NCBI GenBank assembly: GCA_949130485.1
Contig: OX422190.1
Span: 6,850,167-6,914,166, forward strand
Reading direction: 5' to 3'
Origin: Agelas oroides
Lineage: Eukaryota > Porifera > Demospongiae > Agelasida > Agelasidae
DNA length: 64,000 bases
Of this stretch, positions 140 to 34,279 are shown piece after piece. Both the position numbers and the translations under genes were made by a program. The first letter of the stretch is position 1; the number at the start of each line of letters is the position of its first letter. The notes beneath the pieces were generated by a model. The model was not told the origin of the DNA, ran no database searches, and worked only from the letters and a program-made list of their open reading frames with translations.

Positions 140-3100
140 CTGCACTTTGTTAGCAGTGCCAGTGGGTTCTACTTTGTGTATGACTTTTGTCTCTATGGCA
201 ACATGAGTGCTCTTGCCTCTTATACCATTCGATACCTGCCTCTGTGTGTGGTACTACTGCTGTGCCCTCTTGTGGTTCTACTGAGGTGTGTGACATCATT
301 AACTTGTGCCTTCCTGAGTGTAATTGCATTTTGAACATCTACACCATTCTCATTGTGGCTATTATAGTTTTGCATATGCATACTCTCCATCATATGATGT
401 TAATACATGCCGTTCAGCAGTTGTTTGCAGGCTGCATTCCTGCTACTGTGAGTTGTGTGAATGTGAACATTTAGTATGTATCATTGCACATTGTTTCAGG
501 AAATGCAGGTGGCGCTTGATACAACATCATGGATTGTGGTGGATCCTCCTCCTCCTCTACTCACATTTGGTGCACACCTCCGTGTCCATTCTCGACTGTC
601 CTATGCTGCGAGACCCCAGTGACCAGATTGTCAGACCTGTGAGCTTTTGCATGCATAACCAATTTTTGACACTATTTTGCTTGCTTCAGTTTAGTGCCAA
701 TGGTAGCAAACTATCAACAGTCTCCTCCCATGACATTTACTACAGTAGTTTTCCAGCGACGTTGCCAACCCAAAAGCTAGTGGTACTATTAATAATTGTG
801 GTTGGTGTTGATAGCTTCACATCTAATATAACAGTGTGTACAAGGCTACATAATTATGTTTTTCTTCCATCTGGTAGCGATGGTTCGTCAGTGGAGAGGT
901 TACTTGTTTCTCTGGATCTCACTTACCCCTGGCCTTGCTGGCTATGACTGTGCTTCTCCTCTGCTTCCTACTCATCCCCCTTACCATAGCCATCTCTATG
1001 AACATTCTAAAGGTATACAGATATGATGTGGGGTTGATAGTTACTAAGCAAGAAAGTAATACTGGTATTATCTTGGACATTTCTTCATAAGTAATGTTTC
1101 AAATGTCAAAATGCATGTTTGTTACTGGAGATCTGAAGTACATAGAAAGTCCAGCTGCATATTACATGTACACTAGTGCTTTGATGTTTACATCCTTGTC
1201 TGGTGCACATGCATGTCCCCCCACAGAGGCCACAATGGCTGAGACACTTTATTCATCCTTTGACTGTAGTCTTCAGAGATGAGCTGAAGTGGTGGAGTGG
1301 TGTGGAACTTGGAAGGAGGTTCCTATTCCTGCTGTTCTTCATCCCCTTCCCAAGAAATACGGTTAGTACAGTTCAGTGTTTGTAGGTGTGGCCTACAGGG
1401 ACCTTAAATCTTAGTGTGGGCTTGAGTACAATGTCTTGTTTAAACTACATTAAAAGCTGCCACTGTAGTCAGGTTGATATAGGGATTTTTTCCTAACCCC
1501 CAGCAATTACATAAATGTTTAAGTATGTAGGACCCAGGATCCTATATACACCCACCAAAACTCCCACCTTTTGCCGCTGGTCAATGGTGCTGCACGAAAC
1601 CTTGCAGATGTTAACATGAACAACATTAACTGCACACTAGCATATCCAACAATGACTGTGTTGGCACTTGATTTATACATATGTAAAACAGGTTTACCGT
1701 AATTAAAGCTTGGGGGGGGGTATTTTGAGGCACTTAGTGGGTCCCCAAATGCAATGCCCAACTTTGAAAGACCCTGTACTGTCACACCCCATAGTATGGG
1801 AATTAGTGGGCTGGGTGGGTGGGTAAAACAGCTTTATACTTACCGTATTGTCCCGAGCAAGTGCCCATGGGTGCTCGCAGCTCAAGTACCAAAATTGGGG
1901 GTAGGCGGTTGCACAGAGGAGGTGCTTGAATGGTTCAACTATCCCCACGCAAGCGCCCATCCCAGATGCGAAGTTAGCTGCCAGGGTGTACCGAATTGAC
2001 CTGCATCATCACTTCGCCTGTGCTTCATCAAGGCCAGCCCGACAGTGGAGAAAGCTGTATCGTGCAAGAAAGCGGACCGACTCGTAGCCTTGTTGCCAAC
2101 CTTCCTAAGCGTTCGTCACTTGTAGTATGCGCGAATTTCGTACTGCAGGCGAAGAATGCTGCGAACAAGGCTATGCACGTGTATGTGCGAAACCTTGATG
2201 CCGGATGTCATGGCGCCTGAAGCACATCAGAATGATCACAGCTATGTACGTGAGCTCAGTGGACTTACTTTCGATTCACTACGCAAGAATTTAGCATGGT
2301 GGGCAGTTACACGGAGGACCTCAAAAAACCACAAAACTGTCAAAATTGGGGGGTGGGCGCTTGCTCGGGGGTGGGCGCTTGCTCGGGACAATACGGTAAT
2401 TGATTAACAGGCACACCAGGTTTCTGCATGACGTGCACAAAATGCTTTGTTAGAGGTGAGTGCACAGGACCCTATAGAACAAAATGATGTGCTCCGCACT
2501 TGGTTCGATTATCATTAATTTCAAGTAGTTCACAAGACTAATGCAGTGAACTTAATATATGATGAATTGAAAAACCGAGATTTATTTCATGTATTAAGAG
2601 TGCTAAATGTGCTTTACTGGATTAGTAACTTGGCTTACTGCATGGTTTGTTTTCTTTCTCACCATGTATAGGCAGCTCCAACACTCGTATTGGCAATTGT
2701 TATAACGGTCTATGGATTTGCACAGCCATACAAAAGTCTGATTGCAAACATCCTTGAGATGGGTGTCCAAGTAAACTTTCTCTTGTTGCTGTTGATTGAA
2801 GCTACATCAGGCATTCGTGATCTACATTTCACATTTCCACCCCTCCTGCAAAGTAATTCAAAATTTGATCCTGAATGTGTAGACTCTCCGACGGGGATTG
2901 CACCAATCACATGGATCCTGATGCCCTTCTACTACCTACCACTGTTTGTATTTGTGGTGGTTGCATGTGTTTACTTGGCTGTCTATATAAGGTACATGAC
3001 AGTCTAAGTTTCAACAACAATGTACTGAGTAATCTTGGTGACAGAAAGAGCTATGATAAAAAGCTGCAGATCTTGAACAATAGTTTTTGTGTAGTACATG

Positions 3101-3787
3101 GAAACCCTTCATATAAATCATCTCAGTAATAGCCAACAGTATGGAAACATTTGAAGTTGCTGAATTAGCACTTTCATTCCTCATACTGGTATTATGACTG
3201 TTGTAGGCAAGAAAAGTCTGACTATACTAGTAGCTACCGTACTGTAGTTACAAGAGAACAAGACAAGGATCAATATATTTTATGTCTACTCCATCAATCC
3301 ATGCTCACAGTGTACATATATCAGATTTGATAAGGGAATAAGGATGACTAAAACTGGATAGTGAAATTAGCATTATAGTTAACGGAACAACTCGGCTTAC
3401 CCCTTTTGTGATTGAATATACCTACCTTCAGTGGGTTTTTTTTTGTTTTTTGTTTTTTTGGTGTTGGTCTAAAGTGAAACTAGTAGCTAAAAATGAAAAC
3501 AGTACTGGTAGGAAATGGAAAGGATTGGAATTAATGCCAGAGTCTAGCACAATTGTAGCTAATTAACCACATGCTGAAAGATACATCGAGTCTACTGTGG
3601 GTCTTGTTCTCTCTATAGGAAAAAATTCCTCAAGAAGCCTCTGGACGACAGTGAGCCAGAAGCCATAGAGTACCATCATCACACACGTGAAGTGTTTTTT
3701 CAGTCACTGAGATTTGAGGGTAGTCAGTCAGGGTTTGTTACTCTCACTAACCGTTCTGACAATACAGAAGGGATTGACACAGGTTAA
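140..3787 (+). CDS. Beta-helix-repeat family membrane protein, C-terminal multi-pass region (5' end outside window)
   Basis: I assembled six exons from splice sites and frame: 140-285, 500-638, 878-1012, 1227-1361, 2672-2991 and 3619-3787 (stop TAA). All junctions are GT-AG and all phases agree (2,0,0,0,2). The translation is rich in membrane helices: a hydrophobic run after YGNMSALASYTIRYLP; HHGLWWILLLLYSHLVHTSV; WFVSGEVTCFSGSHLPLALL followed by a long hydrophobic run; LGRRFLFLLFFIPF; VLAIVITVYGF; VNFLLLLLI; and WILMPFYYLPLFVFVVVACV. It ends in a hydrophilic tail of about 55 residues with the motif DDSEPEAIEY. This pattern (FSG-H-LP helix, FRDxLKWW, QPYKSLIANILE) matches, from memory, the membrane part of sponge proteins whose ectodomain is a run of polymorphic beta-helix repeats. 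Those repeats also occur elsewhere in this window. The function is unknown. The N-terminal exons lie before base 1. An exact relative of the last four exons is at 21053-24052. Confidence 0.8.
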
Positions 3788-4257
3788 ACATCATATTATA
3801 TAAATCTGTTTTATGGCATGTGATTGTGATTGAATTCATTACTGTATCCAATGAACTGGTGCAGATTCTAATAAATCTTTATATTGTAGCATCCAAATGG
3901 ATTGGATGTTTTCAGTGAGTTGCATGTGGTTGAGTGGATAAGTGAGATGCCAGGCATCAATGGTCAAGGTCTGTTACTGTTAACCAAGATTATCATTGTT
4001 TTATGGAGATGTAAGCTCACATTTGGATTGGAACTGCACTTTTGGGGCTTTTCATGTTGCACATCGTGACTTTCCAATCATGATACACACCACTTGAATG
4101 TGCAGCTTCTTCATTAACTGATCTGGTATGAGTTTCTGCTTCTTTATTTCTTTCTAACTTTTAATGCTACAACAATGTTACATGGGGTGTACAGCAGTGA
4201 ACAGGGACTACTAGTACTAGCTAATGCAGGTGAACTTGTGACATATGGCTACCTAAC
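677..4257 (+). repeat. Segmental duplication, copy 1
   Basis: This block is repeated in direct orientation at about 20847-24509 with only scattered differences. It begins at TGCTTGCTTCAGTTTAGTGCC and ends at GACATATGGCTACCT. It carries the last four exons of the membrane-protein gene, their introns, one MITE and about 470 bp of 3' flank. The 3' flank (3788-4257) has no recognisable coding sequence. The first two visible exons of the gene (140-638) lie outside the block. One internal segment, 1450-1701, is inverted relative to the other copy. Confidence 0.92.
1841..2398. mobile_element. MITE, TACCGTA family type A (intronic)
   Basis: Terminal inverted repeats start TACCGTATTGTCCCGAGCAA on the left and end TTGCTCGGGACAATACGGTA on the right, about 26 bp each and bounded by TA. 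No transposase ORF is visible, so it is non-autonomous. It sits in the 1362-2671 intron of the membrane gene. It is present at the same place in the duplicate (22036-22609), so it inserted before the duplication. It shares its end sequence with the element at 44520-45257. Confidence 0.75.
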
Positions 4258-4930
4258 ATTCATCGGAAACAGCTATAATTCTTGAAAATAATGCTAGCAA
4301 CAGATACAGTGCTGGTGCAATCTGGGCATTAGCAAGTTCACTACACTTTACTGGAACAAACAACTTCATTGGCAACTCAGCATGGTATGGTGGTGCAATA
4401 CGTGTAGAGGCCAGTTTAGTGGTACTAGTATAACTCTCTGCAGATGTGGGCGCAATCAACATAGCTGACAATGTTGTAGTTACCTTCAGTGGAACAAGCA
4501 ACTTTATAGGTAACTCAGCTAGCAATATAGTGGTGGTGCAATTATTGCGACTAGGAACACATCATTGCATTTCTTTGGAACTAGTGACTTTAGTTATAAC
4601 TCAGCAGGAAATTATGGTGGTGCAATAGCCACACATGACAATGTTGTACTTACCTTCAGTGGAACTCAGTGATCAATATGGTGCATGGTGCAATTATGAC
4701 AAATAACATCTTACTTACATTCAACGGAGCCAACAACTTCAACAACAACTCAGTAGACTCTGGTGGTGCAATTGTCACACATGACAATGTCGTACTTACC
4801 TTCAGTGGAACTCAGTGATCAATATGGTGCATGGTGCAATTATGACAAATAACATCTTAATTACATTCAACGGAGCCAACAACTTCAACAACAACTCAGT
4901 AGACTCTGGTGGTGCAATTGTCACATATAA
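4258..4930 (+). pseudogene. Beta-helix repeat exon remnant
   Basis: Fragments such as LHFTGTNNFIGNSAWYGGAI, VVVTFSGTSNFIGNSAS and NNFNNNSVDSGGAI are spread over changing frames with stops between them. The repeat unit matches the polymorphic beta-helix repeats of the same gene family (extracellular in sponge proteins, from memory). A shifted frame at about 4266-4285 (FIGN, then ILENNASNRYSAGAIWA one base out of frame) is also present at 30548-30570. A further deletion near 4415-4450 removes part of one repeat relative to 30700-30760. A near-identical unit is duplicated at about 4660-4920. It starts exactly where the segmental duplication ends. Clearly broken; probably not translated as a whole. 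Confidence 0.75.
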
Positions 4931-4933
4931 CAA

Positions 4934-5526
4934 AAGACTTAAAAAACATTAAAAATGTAAAAAGATGTAGGGATGGCATGCCAAAAAGTATGCAAACAAG
5001 GTATGGATAATGCAGGAAAGCAAAGGTCAACATATTGGCAAAGCCCCATCCCTACATCTTTTTCACACTACAGTTAGACAGTGCATGGGGGTCGTCTTAA
5101 AATGTTCACAACCTTTACTGGCAGTTCATGGCTGTAGCCTTGTTCTCAGGCCACTTCCTTCTCCCACGTGGCCTGGGAACAAGGCTAGTATGACCCTATT
5201 GGTAGCATTATGTTATACGGAACCTCTTCAACAACTTAAGCAGTGAGTTAGAGTAGACTGCAGATTTATGATATGTGTCGTTAAAGTACATGGCATGGTT
5301 TTAGCATCGTCCCCAGGCCACTTTCCTTCTCCCACATGCCGGCTCAGGAACGAGGCTATAAATATGATCTAGCAGCATTGCATCAGCTGTAGTGTGAAAA
5401 AGATGTAGGGATGGGGCTTTGCCAATATGTTGACCTTTGCTTTCCTGCATTATCCCTACCTTGTTTGCATACTTTTTGGCATGCCATCCCTACATCTTTT
5501 TACATTTTTAATGTTTTTTAAGTCTT
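4934..5526. repeat. Foldback element with 140-bp arms
   Basis: Bases 4934-5073 are almost perfectly complementary to 5387-5526, both arms 140 bp, with a ~313-bp loop. The arms contain AAAAAGATGTAGGGATGG at both of their own ends, so each arm is itself a small inverted repeat. The loop holds two short palindromes of the CTCGT-CCCAG type (5135-5188 and 5302-5358). It has no coding capacity and is inserted in beta-helix repeat DNA. Confidence 0.88.
5135..5358. repeat. Two short palindromes of the CTCGTTCCCAG family
   Basis: 5135-5188 and 5302-5358 each begin TAGCCTTGTTCTCAGGCC or similar and end in its complement. Other members or half-members in this window are at 5940-6005, 13010-13060, 13554-13613, 14637-14665, 15697-15747, 36203-36219, 40026-40093, 42875-42900, 43683-43710 and 57118-57150. 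One frame of these elements reads SLVPRP, a known artefact peptide in gene predictions from marine invertebrates (from memory). Confidence 0.7.
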
Positions 5527-6475: not shown

Positions 6476-7440
6476 CTGATTAATACCTTCAGTGGAACAA
6501 ACAACTTCAACAACAACTCAGTAGACTCTGGTGGTGCAATCTTCACATATAACAATACTGTACTTACCTTCAGTGGAACAAACAACTTCAACAACAACTC
6601 AGTAGACTCTGGTGGTGCAATTCGTGCACAAAAGAGCACAGCATTGACTTTCACTGGAACTAGTAGTTTCAGTCTAAATGCCACAGCAGAGTTTGGTGGT
6701 GCAATCTACACAGCTGACAATGTTGTAGTTACCTTCAATGGAGCCAACAACTTCACAGGCAACTCAGCAAACAATGGTAGTGGTGGTGCAATCCATGCAG
6801 TAACCAGCCCATTATTATGGCACTAGTACTTTTAGTTATAACTCTGCCCATTATGATGGTGGTGCTGTTGTCACAGCAAGCGATGCTGTACTCACCATGA
6901 GTGGAACTAACCATTTCATCCACAACTCGGCAAACAATGGTGGTGCAATCTTGGCAGTAGTCAATGCATCAGTGAGTTTCACTGGTACTAGCAGTTTCAT
7001 CAGCAACTTGGCTATGCAAGGTGGAGCTACCTCTGTTAATTCTAACAGCAGACTGGTATTCAACAAAAGCTGTAGCTTTACTAACAAAATGGACATAATA
7101 CAAGAGGAAGCTGTGGGGGTGCAATTTATCTGGGTATTAGTTCAACTTTCTCGATTTTGCCCCACATAATTGTGTGTTGGGAGAACAATCATGCATGCAT
7201 ATGTTTAGGAGGGGCTATTTATGTCTTTAATGCTAATCTCCTTATTTACTGCACAGCGACTCGAATTGCTGCATTTATAAATGCTTCTTTCAGCTCCCTA
7301 GCCAAAATCTCTGTAATGGTCTTGATGTAAAACCTACTTTTAAGAACAACTCTGCTGATGATGCAGGAAGTGTATTATACGGTGGTGCAATAGATAACTG
7401 TGGTCTAGACCCATATGACTCAGGCAAAGTGTTTGACAAG
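6476..7440 (+). pseudogene. Beta-helix repeat exon, 3' part, with frameshifts
   Basis: About eight beta-helix units of the type TFSGTNNFNNNSVDSGGAI run from 6484. The frame shifts near 6815 (LLW, then YGTSTFSYNSAHYDGGAVV). It shifts again near 7125 (into CGGAIYLGISS, WENNHA, GGAIYVFN) and near 7285 (into CFFQLPSQNLCNGLDVK, NNSADDAGSVLYGGAIDNCG). The exon ends at a donor (GACAAG|GTAGTA, 7440). The last conserved segment, with its Cys residues, is what normally follows the repeats and precedes the membrane part in this family (from memory). At least three frame disruptions make it a probable pseudogene. 6600-6830 is paralogous to 32930-34195. Confidence 0.75.
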
Positions 7441-7728
7441 GTAGTACACTAACCACCTTCCAGTGGAATACCACTCTTGTATGTATGGATGAAATACACC
7501 ATGCAGATTAGCTGTTGGTATATGTCAGTTTCGGCTATCGGTGCATAACTACTTGAAAGTAGAGAACACAATAATGAAATTTGAGTAACACGTACCTTAC
7601 AGTTGTTCCACATTGATAGTCTGCACCAAATTCTGGGATGACTCTTTCTCCAAGATTTCCACACGGTTGTGGCAAATGAACTGGTGGGCGGATCTACCCT
7701 TATTGCAGTTGTACTCCAGAGTCCACAA
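7441..7728. other. Spacer between repeat exon and minisatellite
   Basis: No gene or repeat recognised here. Confidence 0.5.
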
Positions 7729-8190
7729 GGCTGCAAGCATGGCTCCTGCAGAGTCTGCAAGGCTGCAAGCATGGCTCCTGCAGAGTCTGCAAGGCTGCAT
7801 GCATGGCTCCTGCAGAGTCTGCAAGGCTGCAAGCATGGCTCCTGCAGAGTCTGCAAGGCTGCATGCATGGCTCCTGCAGAGTCTGCAAGGCTGCATGCAT
7901 GGCTCCTGCAGAGTCTGCAAGGCTGCATGCATGGCTCCTGCAGAGTCTGCAAGGCTGCATGCATGGCTCCTGCAGAGTCTGCAAGGCTGCATGCATGGCT
8001 CCTGCAGAGTCTGCAAGGCTGCATGCATGGCTCCTGCAGAGTCTGCAAGGCTGCATGCATGCCTCCTGCAGAGTCTGCAAGGCTGCATGCATGCCTCCTG
8101 CAGAGTCTGCAAGGCTGCATGAGCATGGATCCTGCAGAGTCTGCAAGGCTGCATGCATGGCTCCTGCAGAGTCTGCAAGGCTGCATGACT
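7729..8190. repeat. 32-bp minisatellite, about 15 units
   Basis: The unit GGCTGCATGCATGGCTCCTG followed by CAGAGTCTGCAA repeats every 32 bp from 7729; the spacing is 34 once (8113 to 8147). Each unit contains the palindromes CTGCAG and GCATGC. Because 32 is not a multiple of 3 and the unit has no stop in any frame, all six frames stay open across the array. The apparent proteins (QTLQEPCMQPCRLCRSHACS on minus, CMHGSCRVCKAACMAPAESA on plus) are therefore most likely artefacts. Confidence 0.93.
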
Positions 8191-8777
8191 ACTGGAGGCA
8201 AGGGATCTGAGTGGGTCTTTGCATTGCCATGTCCACTTCCAGACAGCTGGAAATAGAATCGGGTCAGAGCTATTACTGTTCATTACCTCAGCATTTGTTG
8301 TAAACGGCTAGAAAGGGACATTTCTTATTGTGAACCCAGGATGTGCTATATATATACCATCTGAAAAATTACGTTAATCCTGGCTCAGTTAAGCAAACTG
8401 TTCACGCAATAAAACCTCTCCCAAGTTCAGAGTTCATTGACAAATAATGACAGCAGACTGATATTGTCCAGTGGTTCTCATAAAGTGTAATGTGAAAATA
8501 TTCTCATACTTTTATCCATCCATCCATCTTCATTCACTTCAGTGCACAAACTGATCATTTCAATAACTTTAAATTCAAATTTAAAAATTTTAAACACCTG
8601 TACAAAGCACAGCTAGGCGCAAAATGATTTTTAAAATTCACCAAATTTTCAAATGCTATTGCTACCTAACACACTCAGCTGAAAATGGGTACAGGTACTG
8701 TTTATGCAAATTGTCCAATTGCGGAAGGGTAGTTGGCTACCAGATGTTCTGCAACATGTATGCACGTGAAGAATAAA
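8191..8777. other. 3' flank of the VWA gene
   Basis: AT-rich non-coding DNA between the minisatellite and the last exon of the minus-strand VWA gene. No further feature seen. Confidence 0.5.
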
Positions 8778-11700
8778 TCACCCATGGTGTTGCCTAGCAA
8801 GTAGAGTTTCAAGAGCATTCAGTAGCTCACGCTCCATGATCTCATCTTCCTGGATCTCCTGTTGCATGATCTCTTGTTCCTGGATCTCTGCATTGGTGAA
8901 ATAAAACATCAGCACATGAAGTTATTATATCTGGACGTCTTAATGTTGTGCAAAGCCTACAGTAATAGGCCACACAGGGTTGATTATACATATATCTATA
9001 TTGAGAGCATAAACACAGTATACTCCACTAGATTGTTTACCCTTGGCTATGTTCATCTGCCTTGTAATTTTTAGTGACCAGAAACAGTAAATTAGTAAAG
9101 GAATTTAGATGTTATGAGGCGAAAATAGAGGAAAGTGAAAAAGGCCGGCAGCCACCGGGAGTCGAACCCAGGACACCTGGCTTGAGTCGCCAGTGCTCTG
9201 CCACTGAGCTACGGCAACCGGACAACCACCAGCCCTCACAATCCTCTATTTTCACCTCATAACATCTACATTCCTTTATTTCCAGCGTGTGGCAAGATGT
9301 TCTGAGCAACAGTAAATTAACTTTGTTTCGATAATTATATTATCACAATAGAAATATCCAGACCTAAATGTACTGCTACAAAGTGTGCTTATATTGTTGT
9401 GAAGTTTACCCTTGTCTTGTTTCCTCTCCTTGGTGTTCACGGTGTTGCCTGGAATATATTGAATGGAGAATTGGATCATATTGTGGGACAGTGTTTCACA
9501 TGTGCTATACTAACTCACATCCAACTGGATCACAAAGCATTCCACCATAGGGGAGGTGTACACAACGACATGCAGAATTCACACTGGCTACATCTGCTGG
9601 TGAGATAGAGACAGCCTGATTCAACGCATAAAAAAATTGCACATGTGCAACATGAGAATGCTATTATATAGCTATAAAAAAACTGCATGTGTGCTACAGC
9701 TGTGTGCATTCTCTATCTCTTATTGCACGACTCAAGAATTGTGTATGGCAGGTCATTTCACTGATGTGCTGTATTTTCACTTGCCCTAGGCTCACGACTT
9801 ACAGTGGCATTACTCATGAAAAAAGTTGCCGTATTCCACTCTGACACATGCAGTAATAACTAATCATAAAAAGAATTTGAGGCAAAATAGAGGAAGGTGA
9901 AAAAGCCGGCAGTCGTTGGGAATCAAACCTAGGACACCTGTCTGGTTGTCATAACTCAGTGGCAGAACACTGGCTGCACAAGCCAGGTGCCCTGGGTTCG
10001 TTTCCCAGTGACTGCCACCCTTTTCACTTTCTTCTCTACTTCGCCTCTAAACATCTAAACCCCCTATTCCAGCGTGAGGCAAGAGTTCTAAGCAAGAACT
10101 AATTCTCCTGCACACTCAATGATACACCAATAAAACTCACCAGGTGTTGGAAGTGTAGGTATATTCGAGTTGGGGCCACAAAGTGATGTGATAATTCTAT
10201 TGTAGGTTTCGTTAAGAGCTCCTTCAAGATTGTTGGAGGTGATGACATTGCCTGGTGATGCTATTTTCTCCAAGGTGTCCTGATGTACACGCCCAAATCC
10301 AATTGCGAAAACCTGGACATTTTTTTCTTCTTCTAATTTCTCAGTTTCTGCTTCAAGAGTAGTAGTTGGATAGCCTTGTGGTGTACTATCATCGATTCCA
10401 TCTGTTAACACGAGAGCATATATCTCCCTTTCTGTGCTTCCACGGCTTTCAATTTCTTGATTCAACTTTCTAAGACCAGCTGGAATGATGGTACTTAGGC
10501 CATTTTTATACTCAAGGTCTCTTATTTTCTGCTTTAAATCGTTATTGTCCATGTAATTACCCAGTTCAATATCAACAGTAACATGGGGCTGTGGGTCACT
10601 TATTAGTGGACTTGCTCCCCAGAACTGGATTACTCCAACCCTAGTCAATCCACTCAAATTTTGATTCTGATTTGTACCGATGGCAAATTTGTCGACAAGA
10701 TTGACTGCCCATCTTCTCATCGTTGCATGCCCTTCCTCCCCCAAAGTGCCGGTTGAATCAATGACGAAAAATAGATCTATTTCTGTGCTGCATTGACGAT
10801 CTAGGAGAGAAAAACCGATGAAGAATCACACACAAACAAGCAAACAATACAATGACTGATTGTTCCTAACCTCTTCATTGGCAGGTAGCAAAAACCATTG
10901 TGACAAAATAAGAACAAGAATGCCTTGCTGATAGTAGCTACTAGCTCCACACTTGTTGGTATGGCTGCATATATACAATACAGAGTACAATGCAGAATGT
11001 TTATTGAATCAGCAAGCATTTGCAGCCAGAAACTATGTGCTTTAATGACAAAATTAATGAGGCCTAGTTTAGTGAGTCACAACTATCTACTGTGCTGGCC
11101 ATTCTCCAGGAAAAGATGCTTTACTTCTGAAGTACTTGGCATCTATTCATCTACTGGCGTTCACGCTTCCGGAAAACGTGAGTAGCACTATATACTTTTA
11201 CCAGAAACCATCAGAGAAAAGGCCCTACATCTTCACTGCTTATTTTATCAGGAACTGTGTCACTCAAATGGTATGTGGAATGCACCTACCCTCTATTGGG
11301 TGGAGCCTCCCAGACTAGTGGGACTACATTGCGCATGCATGTGTGTACTATGTTTGCTTTGGACCAACCACTTAGCTACACGTAAATTTTCAAATAAGAT
11401 ATTTCGTGAGGATTAATTGTCTGTGTACACTTCAAATGCTCAGTCAAAACTTAAAGTTGGGGTGAACCTGGCCAAGCCCCACACCGTGGGACAGCATTGT
11501 GCATGCATATGTATATGTATACTAGCCTGCTTGGACCCATCACTTACTTGTTATAGCTGTATGGGCCTACAAGTTAAGCAGTTTCTATGGATCATAACCA
11601 TACATGGACCAGGGGCAAAGAATTACATTTGATGTGTGGTTATACTGCCACTCTGCAGCGTTAGTGTGAAAGAGACCAGTAGCTAACAATGAAGGCGATT

Positions 11701-14482: not shown

Positions 14483-14483
14483 A

Positions 14484-20846: not shown

Positions 20847-21052
20847 TATGCTTGCTTCAGTTTAGTGCCAACCAACCAATGGTAGCAAACTGTCAACAGT
20901 CTCCTCCCATGACATTTACTACAGTAGTTTTCCAGTGACGTTGCCAACCCAAAAGCTAGTGGTACTATTAATAATTGTGGTTGGTGTTGATTGCTTTACA
21001 TCTAATATAACAGTGTGTACAAGGCTACATATGTTTTTCTTCCATCTGGTAG

Positions 21053-24052
21053 CGATGGTTCGTCAGTGGAGAGGTTTCTTGTTTCTCTGGATCTCACTTA
21101 CCCCTGGCCTTGCTGGCTATGACTGTGCTCCTCCTCTGCTTCCTACTCATCCCCCTCACCATAGCCATCTCTATGAACATTCTAAAGGTATACAGATACT
21201 GTATGTGATGTGGGGTTGATAGTTGCTAAGCAAGAAACTAATACTGGTATTATATATCTTGGACAATTCTTCATAAGTAAATGCCTGTTTCAAACGTCAA
21301 AATGGATGATTGTTACTGGAGATCTGAAAGTACATAGAAAGTCCAGCTGCATACTACATGTACACTAGTGCTTTGATGTTTACATCTTTGTCTGGTGCAC
21401 ATGTCCCTCCACAGAAGCCGCAATGGCTGAGACACTTTGTTCATCCTTTGACTGTAGTCTTCAGAGATGAGCTAAAGTGGTGGAGTGGTGTAGAACTTGG
21501 AAGGAGGTTCCTATTCCTGCTGTTCTTCATCCCCTTCCCCAGAAATACGGTTAGTAAAGTTCAGTGTTTGTAGGTGTGGCCTACAGGGACCTTAAATCTT
21601 AGTGTGGGCTTGAGTACAATGTCTTGTTTAAACTACATAAACCTGTTTTACATATGTATAAAATCCAGTGCCAACACAGTCATTGTTGGATATGCTAGTG
21701 TGTAGTTAATGTTGTTCATGTTAACATCTGCAAGGTTTTGTGCAGCACCATTGACCAGTCGCAAAAGGTGGGAGTTTTGGTGGGTGTACAGAATCCTGGG
21801 TCCTACATACTTAACATTTATGTAATTGCTGGGGGTTAGAAAAAAACCTTATATCAACCTGACTACAGAGGCAGCTTTTAACCGTAATTAAAGCTTGGGG
21901 GGGGGGGGGGGGGGGTATTTTGAGGCACTTTAGTGGGTCCCCAAATTCAATGCCCAACTTTGAAAGACCCTGTACTGTCACACCCCATAGTATGGGAATT
22001 AGTGGGCTGGGTGGGTGGGAAAACAGCTTTATACTTACTGTATTGTCCCGAGCAAGCGCCCATGGGTGCTCGCAGCTCAAGTACCAAAAATTGGGGGTAG
22101 GCGGTTACACGGAGGAGGTGCTTGAATGGTTCAACTATCCCCATGCAAGCGCCCATCCCGGATGCGAAGTTAGCTGCCAGGGTGTACTGAATTGACCTGC
22201 ATCATCGCTTCGCGTTTGCTTCATCAAGGTCAGCCCAACAGTGGAGAAAGCTGTATCGTGCAAGAAAGCAGACCGACTCGTAGCCTTGTTGCCAACCTTC
22301 CTAAGCGTTCGTCACTTGTAGTATGCGCGCAAATTTCGTACTGCAGGCGAAGAACGCTGCGAACAAGGCTATGCATGTGTATGTGCGAAACCTTGATGCC
22401 GGATGTCATGGCGCCTGAAGCACATCAGAATGATCACAGCTATGTACGTGAGCTCAGTGGACTTACTTTCGATTCACTACGCAAGAATTTAGCATGGTGG
22501 GCGGTTACACGGAGGACCTCAAAAAACCACAAAACTGTCAAACTTGGGGGGGGGGGGGGGGGGGTGGGCGCTTGCTCGGGGGTGGGCGCTTGCTCGGGAC
22601 AATACGGTAATTGATTAACAGGCACACCAGGTTTCTGCATGACGTGCACAAAATGCTTTGTTAGAGGTGAGTGCACAGGACCCTATAGAACAAAATGATG
22701 TGCTCCGCACTTGGTTCGATTATCATTAATTTCAAGTAGTCCACAACACTAATATAACGAACTTAATGCAAGTCTAGAAACTCATATACAGTACTTGGTG
22801 AAGACCCACTTCTATCAGAATATGTTAATGATGAATTGATTTACTTCATGTACCGTGCAGTTTGCTAAATATGCTTTACTGAATTTGTAACTTGTATTAC
22901 TGGTTTGTTTTCTTTCTCACCATGTATAGGCAGCTCCAACACTCGTACTGGCAATTGTTATAACAGTCTATGGATTTGCACAGCCATACAAAAGTCTGAT
23001 TGCAAACATCCTTGAGATGGGTGTCCAAGTAAACTTTCTCTTGTTGCTGTTGATTGAAGCTACATCAGGCATTCGTGATCTACATTTCACATTTCCACCC
23101 CTCCTGCAAAGTAATTCAAAATTTGATCCTGAATGTGTAGACTCTCCGACGGGGATTGCACCAATCACATGGATCCTGATGCCCTTCTACTACCTACCGC
23201 TTCTCATATTTGTGGTGGTTGCATGTGTTTACTTGGCTGTCTATATAAGGTACATGACAGTCTAAGTTTCAACATTGTACTGAGTAATCTTGGTGACAGA
23301 AAGAGCTATGATAAAAAGCTGCAGATCTTGAACAATAGTTTTTGTGTAGTACATGGAAACCCTTCATATAAATCATCTCAGTAATAGCTAACAGTATGGA
23401 AACATTTGAAGTTGCTGAATTAGCACTTTTATTCCTCATACTGGTATTATGTATGTTGTAGGCAAGAAAAGTCTGACTATACTAGTGGCTGCCGTACTGT
23501 AGTTACAAGAGAACAAGACTAGGATCAATATATATTTTATGTCCACTCCATCAATCCATGCTCACAGTTCAGATTTGATAAGGGAATAAGGATGACTAAA
23601 AATGGATAGTGAATTTATCTAAAATTAGCATAATAGTTAACGGAACAACTCGGCTTACCCCTTTTGTGATTGAATATACCTCCTCTCTTCAGTGTTTTTT
23701 TTGTTGTTGTTGTTGTTGTTGTTTTTTTGGTGTTGGTCTAAAGTGAAACTAGTAGCTAAAATGAAAACAATACTGGTAGGAAATGGAAAGCATTGGAATT
23801 AATGCCAGAGTCTAGCACAATTGTAGCTAATTAACCACTTTCATTCATGCTGAAAGATACATCGGGTCTTGTTCTCACTATAGGAAAAAATTCCTCAAGA
23901 AGCCTCTGGACGACAGTGAGCCAGAAGCCATAGAGTACCATCATCACACACGTGAAGTGTTTTTTCAGTCACTGAGATTTGAGGGTAGTCAGTCAGGGTT
24001 TGTTATGTTCACTAACCATTCTGACAATACAGAAGGGATTGACACAGGTTAA
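21053..24052 (+). pseudogene. Duplicate of the membrane-protein C-terminus, lacking upstream exons
   Basis: Four exons are intact: 21053-21187, 21415-21549, 22930-23249 and 23884-24052 (stop TAA). They have the same phases as copy 1 and mostly conservative changes (for example FVHPLTVV for FIHPLTVV, and YLPLLIFVVV). The two exons that precede these in copy 1 (140-285 and 500-638) fall outside the duplicated block, and I found no equivalents between 18741 and 21052. It is therefore 5'-truncated unless fed by distant exons. The open frames suggest either recent duplication or some use. I call it a pseudogene because no start or ectodomain is in reach. Confidence 0.7.
22036..22609. mobile_element. 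MITE, TACCGTA family type A, duplicate copy
   Basis: Same element as 1841-2398, carried along by the duplication. The left end is mutated (TACTGTATTGTCCCGAGCAA); the right end is intact (TTGCTCGGGACAATACGGTA). The poly-G run inside is expanded. Confidence 0.72.
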
Positions 24053-24699
24053 ACATCATATTATATAAATCTGTTTTATGGCATGTGATTGTGATTGAAT
24101 TCATTATTGTATCCAATGAACTGGTGCAGATTCTAATAAATCTTTATATTGTACCATCCAAATGGTTTTCAGTGAGCTGCATGTGGTTGAGTGGATAAGT
24201 GAGATGCCAGGCATCAATGGTCAAGGTCTGTTACTGTTAACCAAGATTATCATTGTTTTATGGAGATGTAAGCTCACATTTGGATTGGAACTGCACTTTT
24301 GGGGCTTTTCATGTTGCACATCGTGACTTTCCAATCAAGATACACACCACTTGAATGTGCAGCTTCTTCATTAACTGATCTGGTACATAGTTTCTGCTTC
24401 TTTACTTCTTTCTAACTTTAATGCCACAACAATGTTACATGGGGTATACAGTGGTGAACAGGGACTGCTGGCTAATGCAGGTTAATTAGTTGACATATGG
24501 CTACCTCATCATTTTTGGTGCATGTGTTCAGCAACCCATACCGATTCAATCTTGGTCCATCTCTTCAACTTGCACACTACCTGTTGTGGGATGGTTTGTT
24601 GTGGCCTGCACCCTAGCCACAGGTGTTGTCTGCAGTGTTGTTTTGGTTGACCATATATAACTAGAATTAAACACCTTTTAGTGAGACCCTTTAGGTTAA

Positions 24700-24910: not shown

Positions 24911-25399
24911 TTAAGCCCTACAACACTTGTTCTCTAGTTTTACATAGTCTACTCCTGCTATTACAAGTATATTATTGACCAGAATTGTTTATGTGTATAA
25001 AGACGTAGTTGGTTGCGTATATGCCGCGTGATATGCTGCTCAAGTTCTCAAGTTGATACTGAACATTGGGGCTAACATTACTACTGTATCCTGCCAGTGT
25101 TACTCCTTCTGCTATTCCTTTCACCTGTTCTGCGCGTTTCTCACTGTTCTCGTTGGGATTTTGGTCTTTTTTGTCAATTGGTGAGCTTTTATTGGAATTC
25201 TGTATCTGTTGTAGTTATCTGGTTCTGTGGTTGTGTGGCTTATACTAACATAACAACTTGTTGTCTTGGTGTGTTCTAGTGGGGTTGTGAGCTTCAAGGC
25301 CTCTGCCTGCCTTCCTTGCTATATGGCCCTAGTTGGGTGAGTGGGCTACTACTCACTTATTACTCAGATATAAGCCAACTTCAACTTGTTACTCCAGTG

Positions 25400-26401
25400 A
25401 TGGACAGCCCATTGGTAAATCCTGTTCTGGCATATGTAAAAGCCTTTCGACTTAGAGGTGACTTGGATTCCCTTAAGCATGCTGCCCTTGGTAAATTTGC
25501 TACTGCTCTTCTAGCTGAGGCTAAAAGAATCCTGTGGGACAAATGTTCATTGTCTTCACTTGGTCTTCCCCTTACCAGTCGCCGTACTACAGAAAAAAGG
25601 TCTCAGGCAGCTGCTGACTTAGAGGACATCATAGCAGCATTTGCTAAACTTGATGACAACGGCAGTATTCCTATGATCTTCTGTGAGGCCAGTGACCTTG
25701 TCTTGCTCCCTCCCATTGTCACTGATCCGGTTTGTGAGATGGTCCATGAAAATAGTAGGAGTTTGAGGGGTCTGGAGAATGAGATTAAGGAACTCTCCTC
25801 TAAATTTGACAAGCTTAACGCAGTAATTAGTAAAGTAGAGGGAAGTCTCTCTCAACATTCTGCCGAGTCTTATGCAAGCGTTACTCGCTCTTCCCCTCAG
25901 ATTGCTCAAGCTAGAATTTCTTCCCCTCTCAGTGGCAACTTAATGCCTACTTATGCTTCTCGCAGTCATAAACTGATTCTGTTTGGCTTACCTGAGCACA
26001 ACACCCTCACAGAACTAAAGAATGAGATTGATAAAATTTTATCGTTTCTGGTTGGATCTCATGTTCCCTTGAGTGATCTCTATCGCCTTGGTCGTAAGAA
26101 GTCAGGCACCACCACCCCTCTCTCTCGTCCAAGACCTGTGTTGTTGACCTTTACCTCACTGATGGACAGGCGTCTTGTGTTATCACGTGTGCGCAAGCTG
26201 AAAGAGTATGATACAACTGGCCTGTATTTGCGACCTGACCTCTCCATAGATGAGCGCGTTAAACGTCGTTCTGGTAACCCTTCTAGCAGTAATCCTCAAC
26301 CTCCATCTTCTGATTCGGGTGATAGTCATCCTCAAACTACCCCTCTCCCCTCTGATTCTGGTACTCCTGGCGGTGCTTCTGGCACCTTAACTGCACCATG
26401 A
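25400..26401 (+). CDS. Retrotransposon ORF1 protein
   Basis: 334 codons including the stop, starting at ATG (MDSPLVNPVLAYVKAFRLRG). A coiled-coil-like middle (ENEIKELSSKFDKLNAVISK) leads to a possible RNA-binding region (HKLILFGLPEHN, LSDLYRLGRKKS, RPVLLTFTSLMDRR). The C-terminus is Ser/Pro/Gly-rich. ORF1 proteins of this kind bind the element RNA and form a particle with ORF2. The frame is open further upstream without ATG, so 25400 is the first Met. Its stop overlaps the ORF2 start as ATGA, pointing to coupled termination and re-initiation. Confidence 0.75.
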   Translation: MDSPLVNPVLAYVKAFRLRGDLDSLKHAALGKFATALLAEAKRILWDKCSLSSLGLPLTSRRTTEKRSQAAADLEDIIAAFAKLDDNGSIPMIFCEASDLVLLPPIVTDPVCEMVHENSRSLRGLENEIKELSSKFDKLNAVISKVEGSLSQHSAESYASVTRSSPQIAQARISSPLSGNLMPTYASRSHKLILFGLPEHNTLTELKNEIDKILSFLVGSHVPLSDLYRLGRKKSGTTTPLSRPRPVLLTFTSLMDRRLVLSRVRKLKEYDTTGLYLRPDLSIDERVKRRSGNPSSSNPQPPSSDSGDSHPQTTPLPSDSGTPGGASGTLTAP

Positions 26402-29334
26402 TTTCTCAACTACGTATAATTTCGTATAACTGTAGAGGTTGGCGTGGTAGTTCTCCTTATGTTTCTGATCTCCTTTCCTCATGTGATATTCTCTTGATTC
26501 AAGAGCACTGGTTGTCTCGAGAAAACTTTAATGTTCTTAATATAAGTGATCAATTTATCTATACTGCAGTTAGTGGAATGGACAGTTCCAATCTTTTAGT
26601 TGGGCGTCCTTTTGGCGGCTGCGCTATTATGTATCGCAAGTCCTTACTTGCTTGTGTCAAGTCCATTCCTACTAACTCTAAACGTTTCTGTGCGGTCAGA
26701 TTGATTGACTCAAACAATTTTATCATTCTGTTGATTAATGTCTATATGCCGACTGATTATGGGACATCTGTCTCTAATGTTGAATTTATTTCATGCTTAA
26801 GTGAGATTGAGGCGTTTATTGATTCGCAGTCATTCGATTCTCTTATAATTGGCGGTGATTTTAATGTTGATTTCTCTCGTGCGTCTAATAACTCTTTATC
26901 TCTCAGTGACTTTATGTCTTCTTTAAACCTATCTGCTGTTGATTGCCTTTTTCCCTCAATTCCTTTCACTTATATGCGTGATGATGGTTCTGCAACATCT
27001 TGGGTAGATCATTTCCTATGTAGCGAACAGTTGGTGTCCTCTTTTTTCTCTGTCTCTCTTGGTGGATCTGGCTCAAACCTTTCTGATCATCATCCACTTG
27101 TTGCTGTCTTTAACTGTTCCTTGAACGTTACTCCCAATTCTGCGTCTGTGTCCTCTTCCTTTGCGTCTGCGTCCCCTTCCTCCGCGTCTCAGTCTAAACC
27201 GTCCATTGCTTGGCATCGTGCCTCTCCAGATCAAGTATCTGCTTACTGTGATCTTGTTGTTCGCTCTCTCCCTGTTCCTCCAACTGAAGCTTTATGTTGT
27301 ACTAACCCTGACTGTACTAGTCATCTACATGTGCTAGAATTATACTGTGACTCTCTTTGTAACACCTTGAAAGTCTCGGCTGAACTGACTCTTCCTCTCT
27401 CTAGACAAGGTCGTGTTATTCCTGGTTGGAATAAAGCTGCATCTATGCTTAAGTCAAAGGCCAATTTCTGGCATAAAGTTTGGAAAGAAGCCGGCTGCCC
27501 CTGCTCTGGGGTACTTTTTGACATCAAACGCCGTTCACGTTCTCGTTTCAAATATGAAGTAAGACGTCTTAGGCGGCGCGAAAAACACATACGACGATCA
27601 AAGCTTGCCGAAGCCATGAGCTCTAAGGATGTTAATAGTTTTTGGTCTCAAGTAAGGAGAATAAACTCAAGCAAGTCTTCCTCTTCATCATCTGTTGTTG
27701 ATTCTGTGAGTGGTGCACCGCACATTGCCAATGTTTTCTCTGCCAAACTTGAATCCCTTTTGAACTCCCGTTCAACTAGGGCCCGTGAGGAACTTCTGTC
27801 CTCTTTAGATGTTTGTGATGATGATCTTCAGTCTTTTCAGTTTTCACGAGACTGTGTTGTCTCTGCACTCTCTCATCTTAAGCCAGGCAAGCATGACGGA
27901 AGTCCTCTATCCTCCGATCATGTCATTAAGGCTTCCCCAGTGTTAGTCACAATTTTACCTCCTCTTTTTACAGCTTTTGTTCGCCATTCATACCTCCCAC
28001 CCAACCTCAGGAACTGTATCCTTAAACCGATTCCCAAGCCACATAAAGATCCTACCTTATCTGATAGTTATCGACCCATTGCCCTTGCCCCAACATTGAG
28101 TAAAATCCTGGAATGGTGTATCCTTTTACAATATTCTGAATATTTTGCGACTTCCCCACTTCAGTTTGGGTTTAAGAAGCATATGTCTACCGCACTCTGT
28201 ACTGGCTTAGTTAAGAACATATCAGCACACTACATGTCTCACGGCTCCTCTGTCTTTGCTTGTCTGTTAGATGCCAGCAAAGCATTTGATCTTGTTGATC
28301 ATTCGTTGCTGTTTCAGCAGCTACTACAACGAAGGACTCCCAGTTTTTTAGTTCGCTTCCTCATCAGCTGGTATAGCTCTCAATCTTGTAGTGTTTCTTG
28401 GGATGGTGCCAGCTCTGATTCTTTTAATGTTTCTAACGGCGTTCGTCAGGGAGGAGTTCTGTCCCCTGTGTTGTTTACTATATACATGGATATCTTATTG
28501 AATAAGCTTAAAGAGTGTGGAGTTGGCTGATACTGGGATGGTTTGTTTGTTGGCGCTCTCTGTTATGCTGATGATTTGATCTTGTTGGCTCCGTGTCCTT
28601 CTGCTTTACGCACTATGCTCAGTCTATGTGAGTCCTTTTCCAATTCCTATGGTCTCAAATTTAATGCTGGTAAAACTCAACTCATTCGTTTTGGTTTATC
28701 TCCTTCTGACAAGTGTACAACTGCTATCTATTTTTGTGGTGAACTTTTAGCGTTCCTCAATTCTGTCTGTCATCTAGGTCACATTCTGTCTTACAATCTC
28801 TCAGACAACGATGACATTGTTTTTAAGTCCCGGGACTTGCTTAAAAAGGCTAATCTTTTGTTCTGCAACTTTAAGTTCTGCAATCCTCACACCTTAACGT
28901 TTCTGTTTCGCTCATATTGTCTCTCCTTGTATGGATGCTCTCTGTGGCGGCTAGACTCCCCATCTATGAACCTGATTGAAGTTGCCTTCAATAACATTTT
29001 GAGGCGTATCTGGAAACTCCCGTCTAATTCTCATACTAGAATAGTTCATAGTACTGCCCGTCTGTTGAGTCTCTTCAATGTTGTCTTTGCTCATTCTTTA
29101 TCCTTGTTATCTTCTGCTCTGTCCTGTCCTTCGTTCCCTGTTTCTTTTATCTATCGTGTTTCTTCCAACCTTGTGTATACTCCGTGTGGGTTCAACCGTC
29201 TCCGTGGACATAACTATAAGAAGACTTATTATCCTGAAGACCTTTTTTGTGCTAACATAATTAGAGATATTAGAATTAGTTGTGTGTCTAGCAGTGACTT
29301 TGAATATGTAATTTCTGTTATCTCTTCACACTAA
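26398..29334 (+). pseudogene. Retrotransposon ORF2: endonuclease and reverse transcriptase, one in-frame stop
   Basis: The N-terminal APE endonuclease shows SYNCRGWRG, LIQEHW, NVYMPTDYG, IIGGDFNVDF and SDHHPLV. The reverse transcriptase follows with SYRPIALAPTLSKILEW, CLLDASKAFDLVDH, NGVRQGGVLSPVLFTIYMD and the catalytic CYADDLILLAP. A single TGA at 28528-28530 interrupts the frame between blocks (ECGVG*YWDGLFVGALCYAD). The reading resumes in the same frame and runs to 29334. Relatives usually have Cys or another residue here, so TGC to TGA is the simple explanation. Otherwise the 979-codon frame is intact, suggesting a young copy. TGA readthrough is possible but there is no evidence for it. 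Confidence 0.85.
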
Positions 29335-29397: not shown

Positions 29398-29428
<31 letters not shown>

Positions 29429-30138: not shown

Positions 30139-31264
30139 ATGGCTCAGTTCACATTGTTCACCGTTATTGTGGTAGTTCTGTTCATTAACATCCTCCCTTA
30201 CTGCTCTGCTGAGAATGTATACTGCGTCACACCCACTGCCACTTCATGTGCATTCTGTCCTCACAATTCAACCCACTGTGCCACACTCTCTGAGTATATG
30301 CAGTAGAAGCTGAACTGTATTTTACCTCGGAGGTATAGTGGTCATCCAGCTAGTAACTCTGTCCTGCTTTTGCAATCTACACAATATGCTAAACTAGTTT
30401 TCCATGGCACTGCACTTGCACTACATAACACCAGCATTACTGCAGAGGACAGTAAGTTTATACATAACCAGTGTGCGTGTGAGTCATCCAGTGAGAGTTT
30501 TAAGCTAGGATGTGGTATTACTACTCTCAACAGCAACCTAACATTCATCGGAAACACCTATAATTCTTGAAAATAATGCTAGCAACAGATACAGTGCTGG
30601 TGCAATCTGGGCATTAGCAAGTTTACTATACACTTTACTGAAACAAATAACTTCATTGGCAACTCAGCATGGTATGGTGGTGCAATACGTGTAGAGGCCA
30701 ACGCATTGAGTTTTAGTGGTACTAGTAACTTTACTCATAACTCTGCAGATGTGGGTGGTGCAATCAGCATAGCTGACAATGTTGTAGTTACCTTCAGTGG
30801 GACAAACAACTTTATAGGTAACTCAGCAAGCAATGGTAGTGGTGGTGCAATTATTGCAACTAGGAACACATCATTGCATTTCTTTGGAACTAGTGACTTT
30901 AGTTATAACTCAGCAGGAAACCATGGTGGTGCAATTGCCAGAGATGGTAATGTAATTGTTGCTTTTAAAATGGAACTCTTTAACAATTCAGCAGTTATGG
31001 TGGTGGTGCAATCATTGCATCTAGCAACACCTTGTTGGATTTTGTTGGTACTAATGCCTTCAGTCAAAACTCAGCAGGTTATGAAGGTGGTGCAGTTGAG
31101 GTACATATGATGTAGTTATCTTCAGTGGAATAAACAAGTTCATTAACAACTCAGCAAGCAATATTGGTCGTGCAATTATTGCAACTAGCAACACATCATT
31201 GAGCTTTATTGGAACTAGTGACTTTAGTTACAACTTAGCAGAACAGTATATGGTGGTGCAATTG

Positions 31265-31982
31265 GGGCGTGTGTAAAAGCCGGACTCCCGGATCACCGAA
31301 AATTTGAGCAAAAAATCGAACGGGCAATTATAAGTTTTTGCACATGCGCAGTAAGCGTATATTATTAGACGGCTCTTGACAGTCTTGTCCAGGCCGAAGT
31401 CTACTTTCAGGCTGCCTCCAACCTTACTCGTATAGTCTGCCTCTTCTGAGGCAGTGGCACAAAGGAAGGCATTCATGAAAAGCTCCGCTACTTCAAGGCG
31501 CAGAGGGACAGTTCTTGCGCACGAGGTAAGCCAGCTAGTTACCTACCTAGTCGGAGTTTCTCCCGGTACTCTGTGCTACAACTGCGTGCTACGCACACTG
31601 TTTGGTTTCAGCAAGTCGGCGTTTGCGTAGGAAACTGTTGCAGTGAGCGTTTGGCGTACTTGCCACTCTGCGTGTAGGTAGCCTCTGCCGGTTCTGGCAA
31701 AAAACAGTGGCTCAGTTTAATACACCTTGGTGGCTTTTATATGTCCGTGAAGGCCTTAGAAAGGTCAAGCCAGACGACCAAAAAGGAATGCTGCTAGTTA
31801 ATAGGAACAGGCCTACAACGTTTTCCCGTACAGCAAAAGCGAGAAATAGGTGGGCGGGGCCTGAAACGAGGTCGATTACGTACGCGCGCGCAGGCACTTC
31901 ATAATTGTCCGGTCGATTTTTGCACATTTTTGTTGATCCGGGTGATCCGGGTGATCCGGCAGTCCGGCTTTTACACATGCCC
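31265..31982. mobile_element. 718-bp Mutator-like element with 9-bp target duplication
   Basis: The ends GGGCGTGTGTAAAAGCCGGA and TCCGGCTTTTACACATGCCC are inverted repeats. The flanks carry the direct repeat GTGCAATTG (31256-31264 and 31983-31991), part of the beta-helix coding repeat. A 9-bp duplication suits Mutator-like or foldback elements. There is no transposase. Inside, 31476-31526 reads MKSSATSRRRGTVLAHE up to a donor GTAAGC, which looks like a captured first exon. Confidence 0.8.
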
Positions 31983-32390
31983 GTGCAATTGCCACAATAG
32001 ACACTGTTGTACTTACCTTCAGTGGAACCAACAACTTCATGGAACGGTATGGTGGTGCAATTGCCACAATAGACACTGTTGTACTTACCTTCAGTGGAAC
32101 CAACAACTTCATGGAACTCAGCAGAACGGTATGGTGGTGCAATTGCCACAATAGACACTGTTGTACTTACCTTCAGTGGAACCAACAACTTCATGGAACT
32201 CAGGAGAACGGTATATGGTGGTACAATTGCCACAATAGACACTGTTGTACTTACCTTCAATGGAACCAACAACTTCATGGAACTCAGCAGAACGGTATAT
32301 GGTGGTGCAATTGCCACAGTAGACACTGTTGTACTTACCTTCAGTGGAACCAACAACTTCATTGACATCTCAGCTGAACATGAAAAGGAA
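31983..32390 (+). repeat. Homogenised beta-helix repeats, ~84-bp period
   Basis: Five units of GGTGCAATTGCCACAATAGA plus CACTGTTGTACTTACC start at about 31983, 32054, 32137, 32221 and 32306. They are nearly identical, unlike the diverged units on either side. This implies recent tandem expansion or gene conversion. The unit is 28 codons, one or one-and-a-bit beta-helix turns. Confidence 0.75.
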
Positions 32391-32758: not shown

Positions 32759-32953
32759 CAACAATATGGTGGTGCAATTATGACAAATAACAACAACATA
32801 CTATACATTCAACGGAGCCAACAACAATTCAGCAGACTCTGGTGATCTTCACATATAACAATACTGTACTTACCTTCAGTGGAACGAACAACTTCAACAA
32901 CAACTCAACAGAACAGCTTGGTGGTGCAATTCGTGCACAAAAGAGCACAGCAT

Positions 32954-34031
32954 CAGTGGCGTAGCCAGGATGAGCAGCCCTTACGTGGGCACAGCTATAG
33001 TCTGCATGGGCACACTTAGTGCGTGCGCACCACGCATCTGCTAGGGGACCTAGGGCATGCTTCCACCATGAAAAATTTCACAATTATACACTCTGAGATC
33101 ACTTCTGAGGTCGTTTTTGGACACAAATACAGTCTTACCTGTATGCACGCTTCATGTCCGCATGAAACTTGCGATCGCACATGCTAAGTATAATTAATAG
33201 CATGGTTTCGAGTGCAATTTGGGATTAATAGCACGAGTGAATGGCTATTAATTGCACGAGGCGAAGCCGAGTGCAATTATGCCAATCACGAGTGCTATTA
33301 ATCCCAAATTGCACGAGAAAACATGCTATTGATTGCTAATCATAAACTTTGCCAAGTTGACAGTACACTACAATAAGTATGAGCATGTATGAGATAGCCA
33401 AGTTTATTGTATACAAGTTTACAGTACACTGTATAGTTTACAGCAAATTGTTGATTATCAAAAAATACAAAAACTACAAAACCGTACAAGGTGTAATCGC
33501 TCACTGATTGGTCAGTAGCAATTTGCTGTAAACTATATTAACATAATGTAAACTTGTAACTTGTAAGCGACAACAATTTGCTGTAAACATAATGTAAACT
33601 TGTAACTTGTGACAACAATTTGGTGTAAACAATACAGTTTACTGTAAACTTGTATACTATAAACCACCACATCACATACATACTCATACTTATTATAGCA
33701 TACTGTAAACTAGGCAGAGTATATGATTAACAAGTAACAGCATGATTTCTCGTGTAATTTGGGATTAATAGCAAATTGCACTCGAAACCATGCTGTTAAT
33801 TATACCAATCAGTGAGCTATTACACTTTTTGCACTGTTTACATGTACAAGAAAAACACTATTTGGCATTTATTGCACTGTTGTTAATTAATGGAGCTTAA
33901 GTATGGACTGTATATAGTCATATGATTATAACGGATTATTGACCTTAGCTTTCTAAATTATCTTTACCCGGGCACCAAAGAATTTTACGTGGGTACAGGC
34001 CCGGGTATGCCCGGGTGTAGCTATGCCACTG
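32954..34031. mobile_element. hAT-like non-autonomous transposon, 8-bp target duplication
   Basis: The ends are CAGTGGCGTAGCCAGG and TAGCTATGCCACTG, inverted repeats of the hAT type (CAGTGG). They are flanked by the 8-bp direct repeat CACAGCAT (32946-32953 and 34032-34039). It splits the codons of a beta-helix exon whose intact form is at 6640-6660. There is no transposase. A nested palindrome lies at 33199-33328 and a related end at 33735-33800. Confidence 0.88.
33199..33328. repeat. Palindromic element capped by GCGAAGC
   Basis: The left arm AGCATGGTTTCGAGTGCAAT and following bases mirror the right arm ending ATTGCACGAGAAAACATGCT. A second, inner inverted repeat ATTGCACGAG / GAGTGCAAT is centred on GCGAAGC at 33261-33267. 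It is nested in the hAT-like element. Confidence 0.72.
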
Positions 34032-34279
34032 CACAGCATTGACTTTCACTGGAACTAGTAGTTTCAGTCTAAATGCAGCAGCAGAGTTCGGTGGTGCAAT
34101 CTACACAGCTGACAATGTTGTAGTTACCTTCAATGGAGCCAACAACTTCACAGGCAACTCAGCAAACAATGGTAGTGGTGGTGCAAGGGCTAGTGTACTG
34201 GTGTTTCTTAGAGATCTGGACAGGTTTCATGGTACAATGGGTGCAATAGGGAAATTTAGTTGTCCATTGACAATTTGAT

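Follow-up and report, generated by a model that had tools for sequence, protein, structure and literature searches.

Two sister membrane-protein families at a sponge locus: the 3' end of a family B gene and relics of an intronless Pmp-repeat gene, probably duplicated as a block

The window analysed here is a stretch of 64,000 nucleotides from the demosponge Agelas oroides (GCA_949130485.1, contig OX422190.1; C8:6850167-6914166, plus strand), taken from an assembly of 259,295,671 bases in 141 contigs, which are referred to by C numbers. It contains pieces of genes from two families of multi-pass membrane proteins, called family A and family B in this work. The window likely covers the 3' end of a family B gene together with the relic of a family A gene, as an A/B block that was duplicated in tandem; the gene-structure part of this reading, taken from sequence comparison, is very likely correct. 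The first-pass annotation of this DNA had combined all of these parts in one protein family, and the composite gene model is corrected here. The pieces, and the retrotransposon that lies among them, are as follows, where the family B joins are those that GT-AG splice sites allow.

140-285, plus: family B window exon 1 (membrane segment, CLYGNM motif); GT-AG junctions, open frame, conserved with the copies on C4
500-638 (alternative start 509), plus: family B window exon 2; GT-AG joining
878-1012, plus: family B window exon 3 (RWFVSGE..GSHLPL); GT-AG joining and homology
1227-1361 (alternative ends 1365 and 1370), plus: family B window exon 4 (FRDELKWW); GT-AG joining
2672-2991 (start 2676 if exon 4 ends at 1365), plus: family B window exon 5 (KSLIANILE); GT-AG joining
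3619-3787, plus: family B last exon and stop; GT-AG joining
4248-4896, plus: family A relic unit 1, repeats with a frameshift
6479-7449, plus: family A relic unit 1, repeats and post-repeat segment with several frame changes, lacking a membrane domain
21053-21187, plus: family B partial copy, exon 3; GT-AG joining
21415-21549, plus: family B partial copy, exon 4; GT-AG joining
22930-23249, plus: family B partial copy, exon 5; GT-AG joining
23884-24052, plus: family B partial copy, last exon; GT-AG joining
25280-29334, plus: long interspersed nuclear element (LINE)-type retrotransposon with endonuclease and reverse transcriptase, parting the halves of the second block (extent from three adjoining frames, the last two of them domain-scanned)
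30139-30303, plus: family A relic unit 2, signal peptide and N-terminus
30334-31246, plus: family A relic unit 2, N-terminal segment and repeats, frameshifted
31955-32384, plus: family A relic unit 2, repeat units multiplied locally
32819-32953, plus: family A relic unit 2, 89% match to 6508-6644 of unit 1
34031-34197, plus: family A relic unit 2, including 156 bases 98% identical to 6636-6791

The six family B exons between 140 and 3787 can be spliced at GT-AG sites into one open frame with its stop at 3787, and joining exons 3-6 of the second copy in the same way also gives an open frame, which ends at 24052. The membrane exons that were annotated earlier on the plus strand are confirmed for 140-3787, and so is a partial second set (21053-24052). 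The accompanying remark that only one C-terminal part is unbroken holds in so far as exons 1 and 2 of the window set and a signal-peptide exon were not found for the second copy, and fails in that exons 3-6 of this copy are open as well.

A genome search with the KSLIANILE exon gave 16 matches in all. Two are in the window and four, with 77-85% identity, on C4; seven on C20 and one at C4:161842 are only 31-40% identical to the window exon and were compared by the membrane part alone. The last two are pieces (67% and 76%) of one broken membrane-exon fragment of the family at C8:6968913-6969138, 55 kb past the end of the window. The family B members elsewhere in the assembly, at C4:787-836 kb, C20 and C4:161842, have the membrane motif in common, and on C4 there are four pairs of N- and C-terminal exons. 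In the search with the family B signal-peptide exon, five of the nine matches were strong (78-100% identical), four on C4 and one at C8:6837759, which is 12.4 kb upstream of the window; all five are followed, 9-15 kb on and on the same strand, by a KSLIANILE exon. This genome search revealed no such signal-peptide exon near the second window copy (22930) or near the fragment at C8:6968913-6969138. The distant family B membrane domain in C4:160342-163665 is encoded in a single frame of 405 codons, as opposed to the split exons of the window copies.

One family B gene, C4:808067-823222, was read throughout and consists of a signal peptide, a multi-exon ectodomain, Cys-rich exons and membrane exons; a tblastn comparison (E up to 0.01) found no family A sequence in it. 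One 200-residue stretch of the B ectodomain scored 24.4 bits against the Pfam Beta_helix family (PF13229), just below the cut-off of 25.9. Three ectodomain exons of this C4 gene were recovered in C8 upstream of the window, and none of the 11 upstream B pieces that were searched from it lies within the window. The family B part of the window would be the 3' end of a gene of about 16 kb with many exons, the product of which is predicted to carry a signal peptide, a beta-helix-like ectodomain, a part encoded by Cys-rich exons and a multi-pass membrane domain. The ratio of nonsynonymous to synonymous substitution rates (dN/dS) in exon 5 is 0.16 to 0.35 between the first window copy and the four C4 copies, suggesting that this exon is under constraint; among the C4 copies, which differ by few changes, it is 0.23 to 0.89.

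Family A has a different gene structure. The family A gene on C1 has no intron and takes up one frame of 1374 codons between two stops (1364 residues from the Met). Its protein starts with a signal peptide, which is followed by Pmp repeats; next comes a Cys-rich part with LLCGACKNEYSLVLG, and seven hydrophobic segments and a tail complete it. In 510 residues, an intact family A protein has 12 GGA[ILV] and 18 FxxN motifs, against maxima of 3 and 15 in 1000 shuffles, and it scores 52.7 bits against Pfam PF02415 (cut-off 20.6; 1.8e-14), which places it among the Pmp-repeat proteins. These shuffle counts and the PF02415 fit show that the repeats exceed chance, and they support the earlier observation of repeats on the plus strand of the window. 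Elsewhere in the genome, intact family A genes are intronless and encode, after the signal peptide, Pmp-type FxxN/GGA(I) repeats and a Cys-rich LCGxC segment, with a conserved tail behind the seven hydrophobic segments.

The genome-wide search with the repeats gave 212 matches (150 of 1423 candidates scored), and most of those listed are within long open frames distant from the window. The family A membrane domain gave 120 matches in 119 loci (119 of 1130 first-look candidates scored), none of which is on C8 and four of which sit on C69 and C73. Stop-free frames of at least 1000 residues are found at 91 of the 119 loci and shorter frames at 28, among which are all four matches with an inner stop. 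Among the repeat matches listed, with the query's own row excluded, there are 83 distinct frames, 54 of them of at least 1000 residues, and the A membrane domain is present in the same frame in 48 of these 54. A 30-base A membrane motif, picked from ten loci, occurs 185 times in the genome with up to three mismatches, compared with 0 occurrences of the reversed control. Family A loci that neighbour each other at less than 30 kb are on the same strand in 48 of 51 cases and on opposite strands in three. Three motif copies on C12 (2722812, 2762240 and 2801668) have an exact spacing of 39,428 bases, suggesting either that the segment was triplicated recently or that the assembly repeats it. A search of IMG/VR viral contigs revealed no relative of an 89-residue stretch of the A membrane domain.

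In the window, GGAI/FxxN-type repeats are located on the plus strand at 4248-4896, 6479-7449, 30634-31246, 31955-32384, 32819-32953 and 34031-34197; of five relic pieces tested for motifs, three have both GGA[ILV] and FxxN, and two have GGA[ILV] alone. The signal peptide and N-terminus annotated at 30139 are also real, and are those of family A, since the next-best matches of this signal peptide are family A N-termini (150 of 217 candidates scored). The window aligns to the intact A protein of 1364 residues no further than residue 731; thus, the A membrane part is missing from it. The relic pieces at 4248-4644 and 30533-30953 are 89% identical and have a frameshift in common, 6508-6644 corresponds to 32819-32953 (89%), and 6636-6791 to 34031-34186 (98%). 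An inverted repeat at 4934-5526, with 140-base arms that are 99% complementary, sits between the two unit 1 pieces.

A self-comparison of the window reveals direct blocks of 94-99% identity that link 697-4128 with 20876-24385, with one 128-base block inverted, and the match between the ends of the two B copies extends to 4254 in the first and 24506 in the second. The A relic lies directly downstream of the B stop. In the simplest history that we infer, the A gene broke first, and the block made up of the last B exons and the A relic was then duplicated in tandem. The second block would later have been split by the LINE (25280-29334) and by 1.1 kb of other DNA, which separates the relic piece at 34031-34197 from the preceding piece at 32819-32953. 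Tandem duplication, partial copies and relics all fit the birth-and-death process proposed earlier, and the window looks like an ordinary birth-and-death locus, in which one B gene end probably works, next to a partial copy of it and a dead A gene.

The membrane domains of the two families are homologous. A single hhalign comparison gave a probability of 94.9% and an E-value of 4.3e-8, with 26% identity over 208 columns, and the motifs CFYNGM/CLYGNM, GEHIPL/GSHLPL, YKAKHRYW/FRDELKWW and VYKNWCLDALE/PYKSLIANILE (A/B) are aligned in register. Because of this profile comparison and the motifs in register, families A and B are seen from their sequences as distantly related sisters. One A and one B protein were scanned against Pfam, and neither matched a membrane family or a known G-protein-coupled receptor (GPCR) family, the match of A to MSC (E 0.12) being far under the cut-off. 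The full A protein, which ends in seven hydrophobic segments, had no match to an autotransporter domain in Pfam at E up to 1. In the PDB, sequence searches revealed no chain that matches the membrane profile (E up to 1) and none that matches the A ectodomain.

The model of the first-pass annotation, in which the Pmp repeats, the signal peptide at 30139 and the FRDxLKWW/KSLIANILE exons form one protein whose parts were scattered by birth and death, accounts for the location of every part on the plus strand within 34 kb, and it is consistent with the general architecture and the homologous membrane domain common to A and B. It is nonetheless very improbable, as the first B copy reaches its stop upstream of the repeats, the strong B N-terminal exons are of a different type in five out of five cases, the sole B gene read throughout has no A match, and 48 of the 54 long repeat frames carry another membrane domain. 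Genome-wide, the repeats and the 30139 signal peptide pair with another membrane domain, and the KSLIANILE exons with another N-terminus; these N- and C-terminal pairings speak against one gene, and the model was set aside. The A and B genes of the same genome largely keep apart the repeats and the membrane part that it had united. What stands of the model is the architecture of a beta-helix ectodomain with a multi-pass membrane domain, which fits A and probably B (by its sub-threshold Pfam match), one full-length member having been read per family; what falls is the pairing proposed in the window. More improbable still is a new fusion gene, in which the second B copy (21053-24052) recruited the A relic at 6479-7449 as upstream exons. 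The order and strand are compatible with such a local chimera, as is the open frame into which exons 3-6 of the second copy can be spliced, but the relic at 6479-7449 contains several changes of frame and no signal peptide, and of the B membrane exons in the window set the second copy is missing the first two. Two families, with a family B gene end and a family A relic duplicated together, remain the preferred reading.

The repeats of family A are best known from Chlamydia, and family A joins them to a seven-segment membrane module. Chlamydial Pmp proteins (PF02415) are like A in their signal peptide and their tandem FxxN and GGA(I,L,V) repeats (motif definition in PMC10715098), and differ in that they have an autotransporter domain, whereas the scanned A protein has a Cys-rich segment and seven hydrophobic segments instead. 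FxxN/GGA repeats are predicted to form beta-helices in bacteria, archaea and eukaryotes (PMC10715098), and for PF02415 four methods agree on this prediction, while AlphaFold2 reportedly predicts beta-solenoids too often when repeats are perfect (both PMC11795689). A eukaryotic multigene family with Pmp repeats is present in Trichomonas vaginalis, with at least two dozen genes of differing architectures, a transmembrane domain in most expressed members, and a location mainly in internal compartments (PMC6701047); its proteins increase adhesion (PMC6701047). Family A differs from it in having one common seven-segment membrane module, with 185 copies of the motif. Seven-pass receptors of the GPCR classes are like A in their seven hydrophobic segments, and the A and B proteins scanned match no Pfam GPCR family, nor does the membrane profile match a PDB chain at E up to 1. 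No published description of such a family turned up among the papers listed by a literature search, with most subscription papers outside it; the "beta helix" of a freshwater-sponge paper (PMC7882143) refers to an Oas1-like gene.

Across ten A loci, the median dN/dS is 0.21 for the membrane part and 0.27 for the tail, and 0.41, 0.47 and 0.52 for three stretches of the ectodomain. Both A and B proteins are predicted to be plasma-membrane proteins whose beta-helix forms a rigid rod outside the cell. Given strong constraint on the membrane part, weaker constraint on most of the ectodomain and variable frame lengths in A, the most likely role for A would be to adhere to other cells or microbes, or to recognise them, by means of many different rods on a common membrane module, a suggestion that is tentative and somewhat short of probable. 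A more specific and rather doubtful possibility is that A may be a repertoire telling self, symbionts or microbes apart, in which a constant seven-pass module bears Pmp-type beta-helix rods that vary in length and B is the intron-rich sister. If A rods do bind cells or microbes, they would constitute a new kind of recognition or adhesion repertoire, and under the repertoire reading the window would illustrate how such genes die and travel along in duplications. It is unlikely, and slightly more so than the repertoire, that family A was mainly amplified passively and kept by duplication, as its tandem arrays (48 same-strand against three opposite-strand neighbour pairs) and the exactly spaced trio on C12 would allow; purifying selection on the membrane part argues against this, and the long open frames at 91 of 119 loci suggest that many copies are maintained. 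As a large, intronless eukaryotic family with mostly open frames, A deserves to be studied separately.

Several points weigh against the two-family reading and the role proposed for A. The exon joins of family B are based on GT-AG sites and homology, not on transcripts, and six joinings fit per copy. Upstream of the window, C8:6841167-6845166 is legible and the following 5000 bases read N, which is why the Cys-rich exons of the window B copy are not seen. Six of the 54 long repeat frames have no A membrane match in the same frame among the 119 of 1130 candidates scored. A stretch of 3306 bases on C70 is letter-for-letter identical to C1:17221000-17224305, so small contigs may duplicate chromosomal copies and inflate the counts for A. 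The dN/dS values compare paralogs at ten loci that match one query best; three of these loci sit in frames of less than 800 residues, and for the repeats only 27 of 45 pairs were usable. The short extracellular LCG motif, with a dN/dS of 0.15, is as constrained as the membrane part, and the higher values in the ectodomain may reflect relaxed constraint or misaligned repeats. Finally, the Trichomonas Pmp proteins tested are found mainly in internal compartments and not at the surface (PMC6701047).

Other features of the window include exons with recognisable domains: a von Willebrand factor A domain exon (10088-10822, minus, E 1.6e-19), a fragment of a seven-pass receptor of the secretin or slime-mould cAMP-receptor type (17803-18393, plus, E 4.3e-7), an exon of a death-domain protein (46180-47247, plus, E 5.2e-8) and a PHD-finger exon (51472-51966, minus, E 6.3e-7). 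Retroelement-like frames occupy 52740-60616 on the minus strand, with a weak RVT_1 match under the cut-off at 59741-60616, and this region contains a 162-base inverted repeat (52740-52901 and 58772-58933). A minisatellite array of a 32-base unit, with 13 registered copies, is located at 7618-8193, and the long frames on both of its strands are not evidence of a gene. A second minisatellite, at 62855-63444, has copies spaced by 45, 140, 135 and 135 bases.

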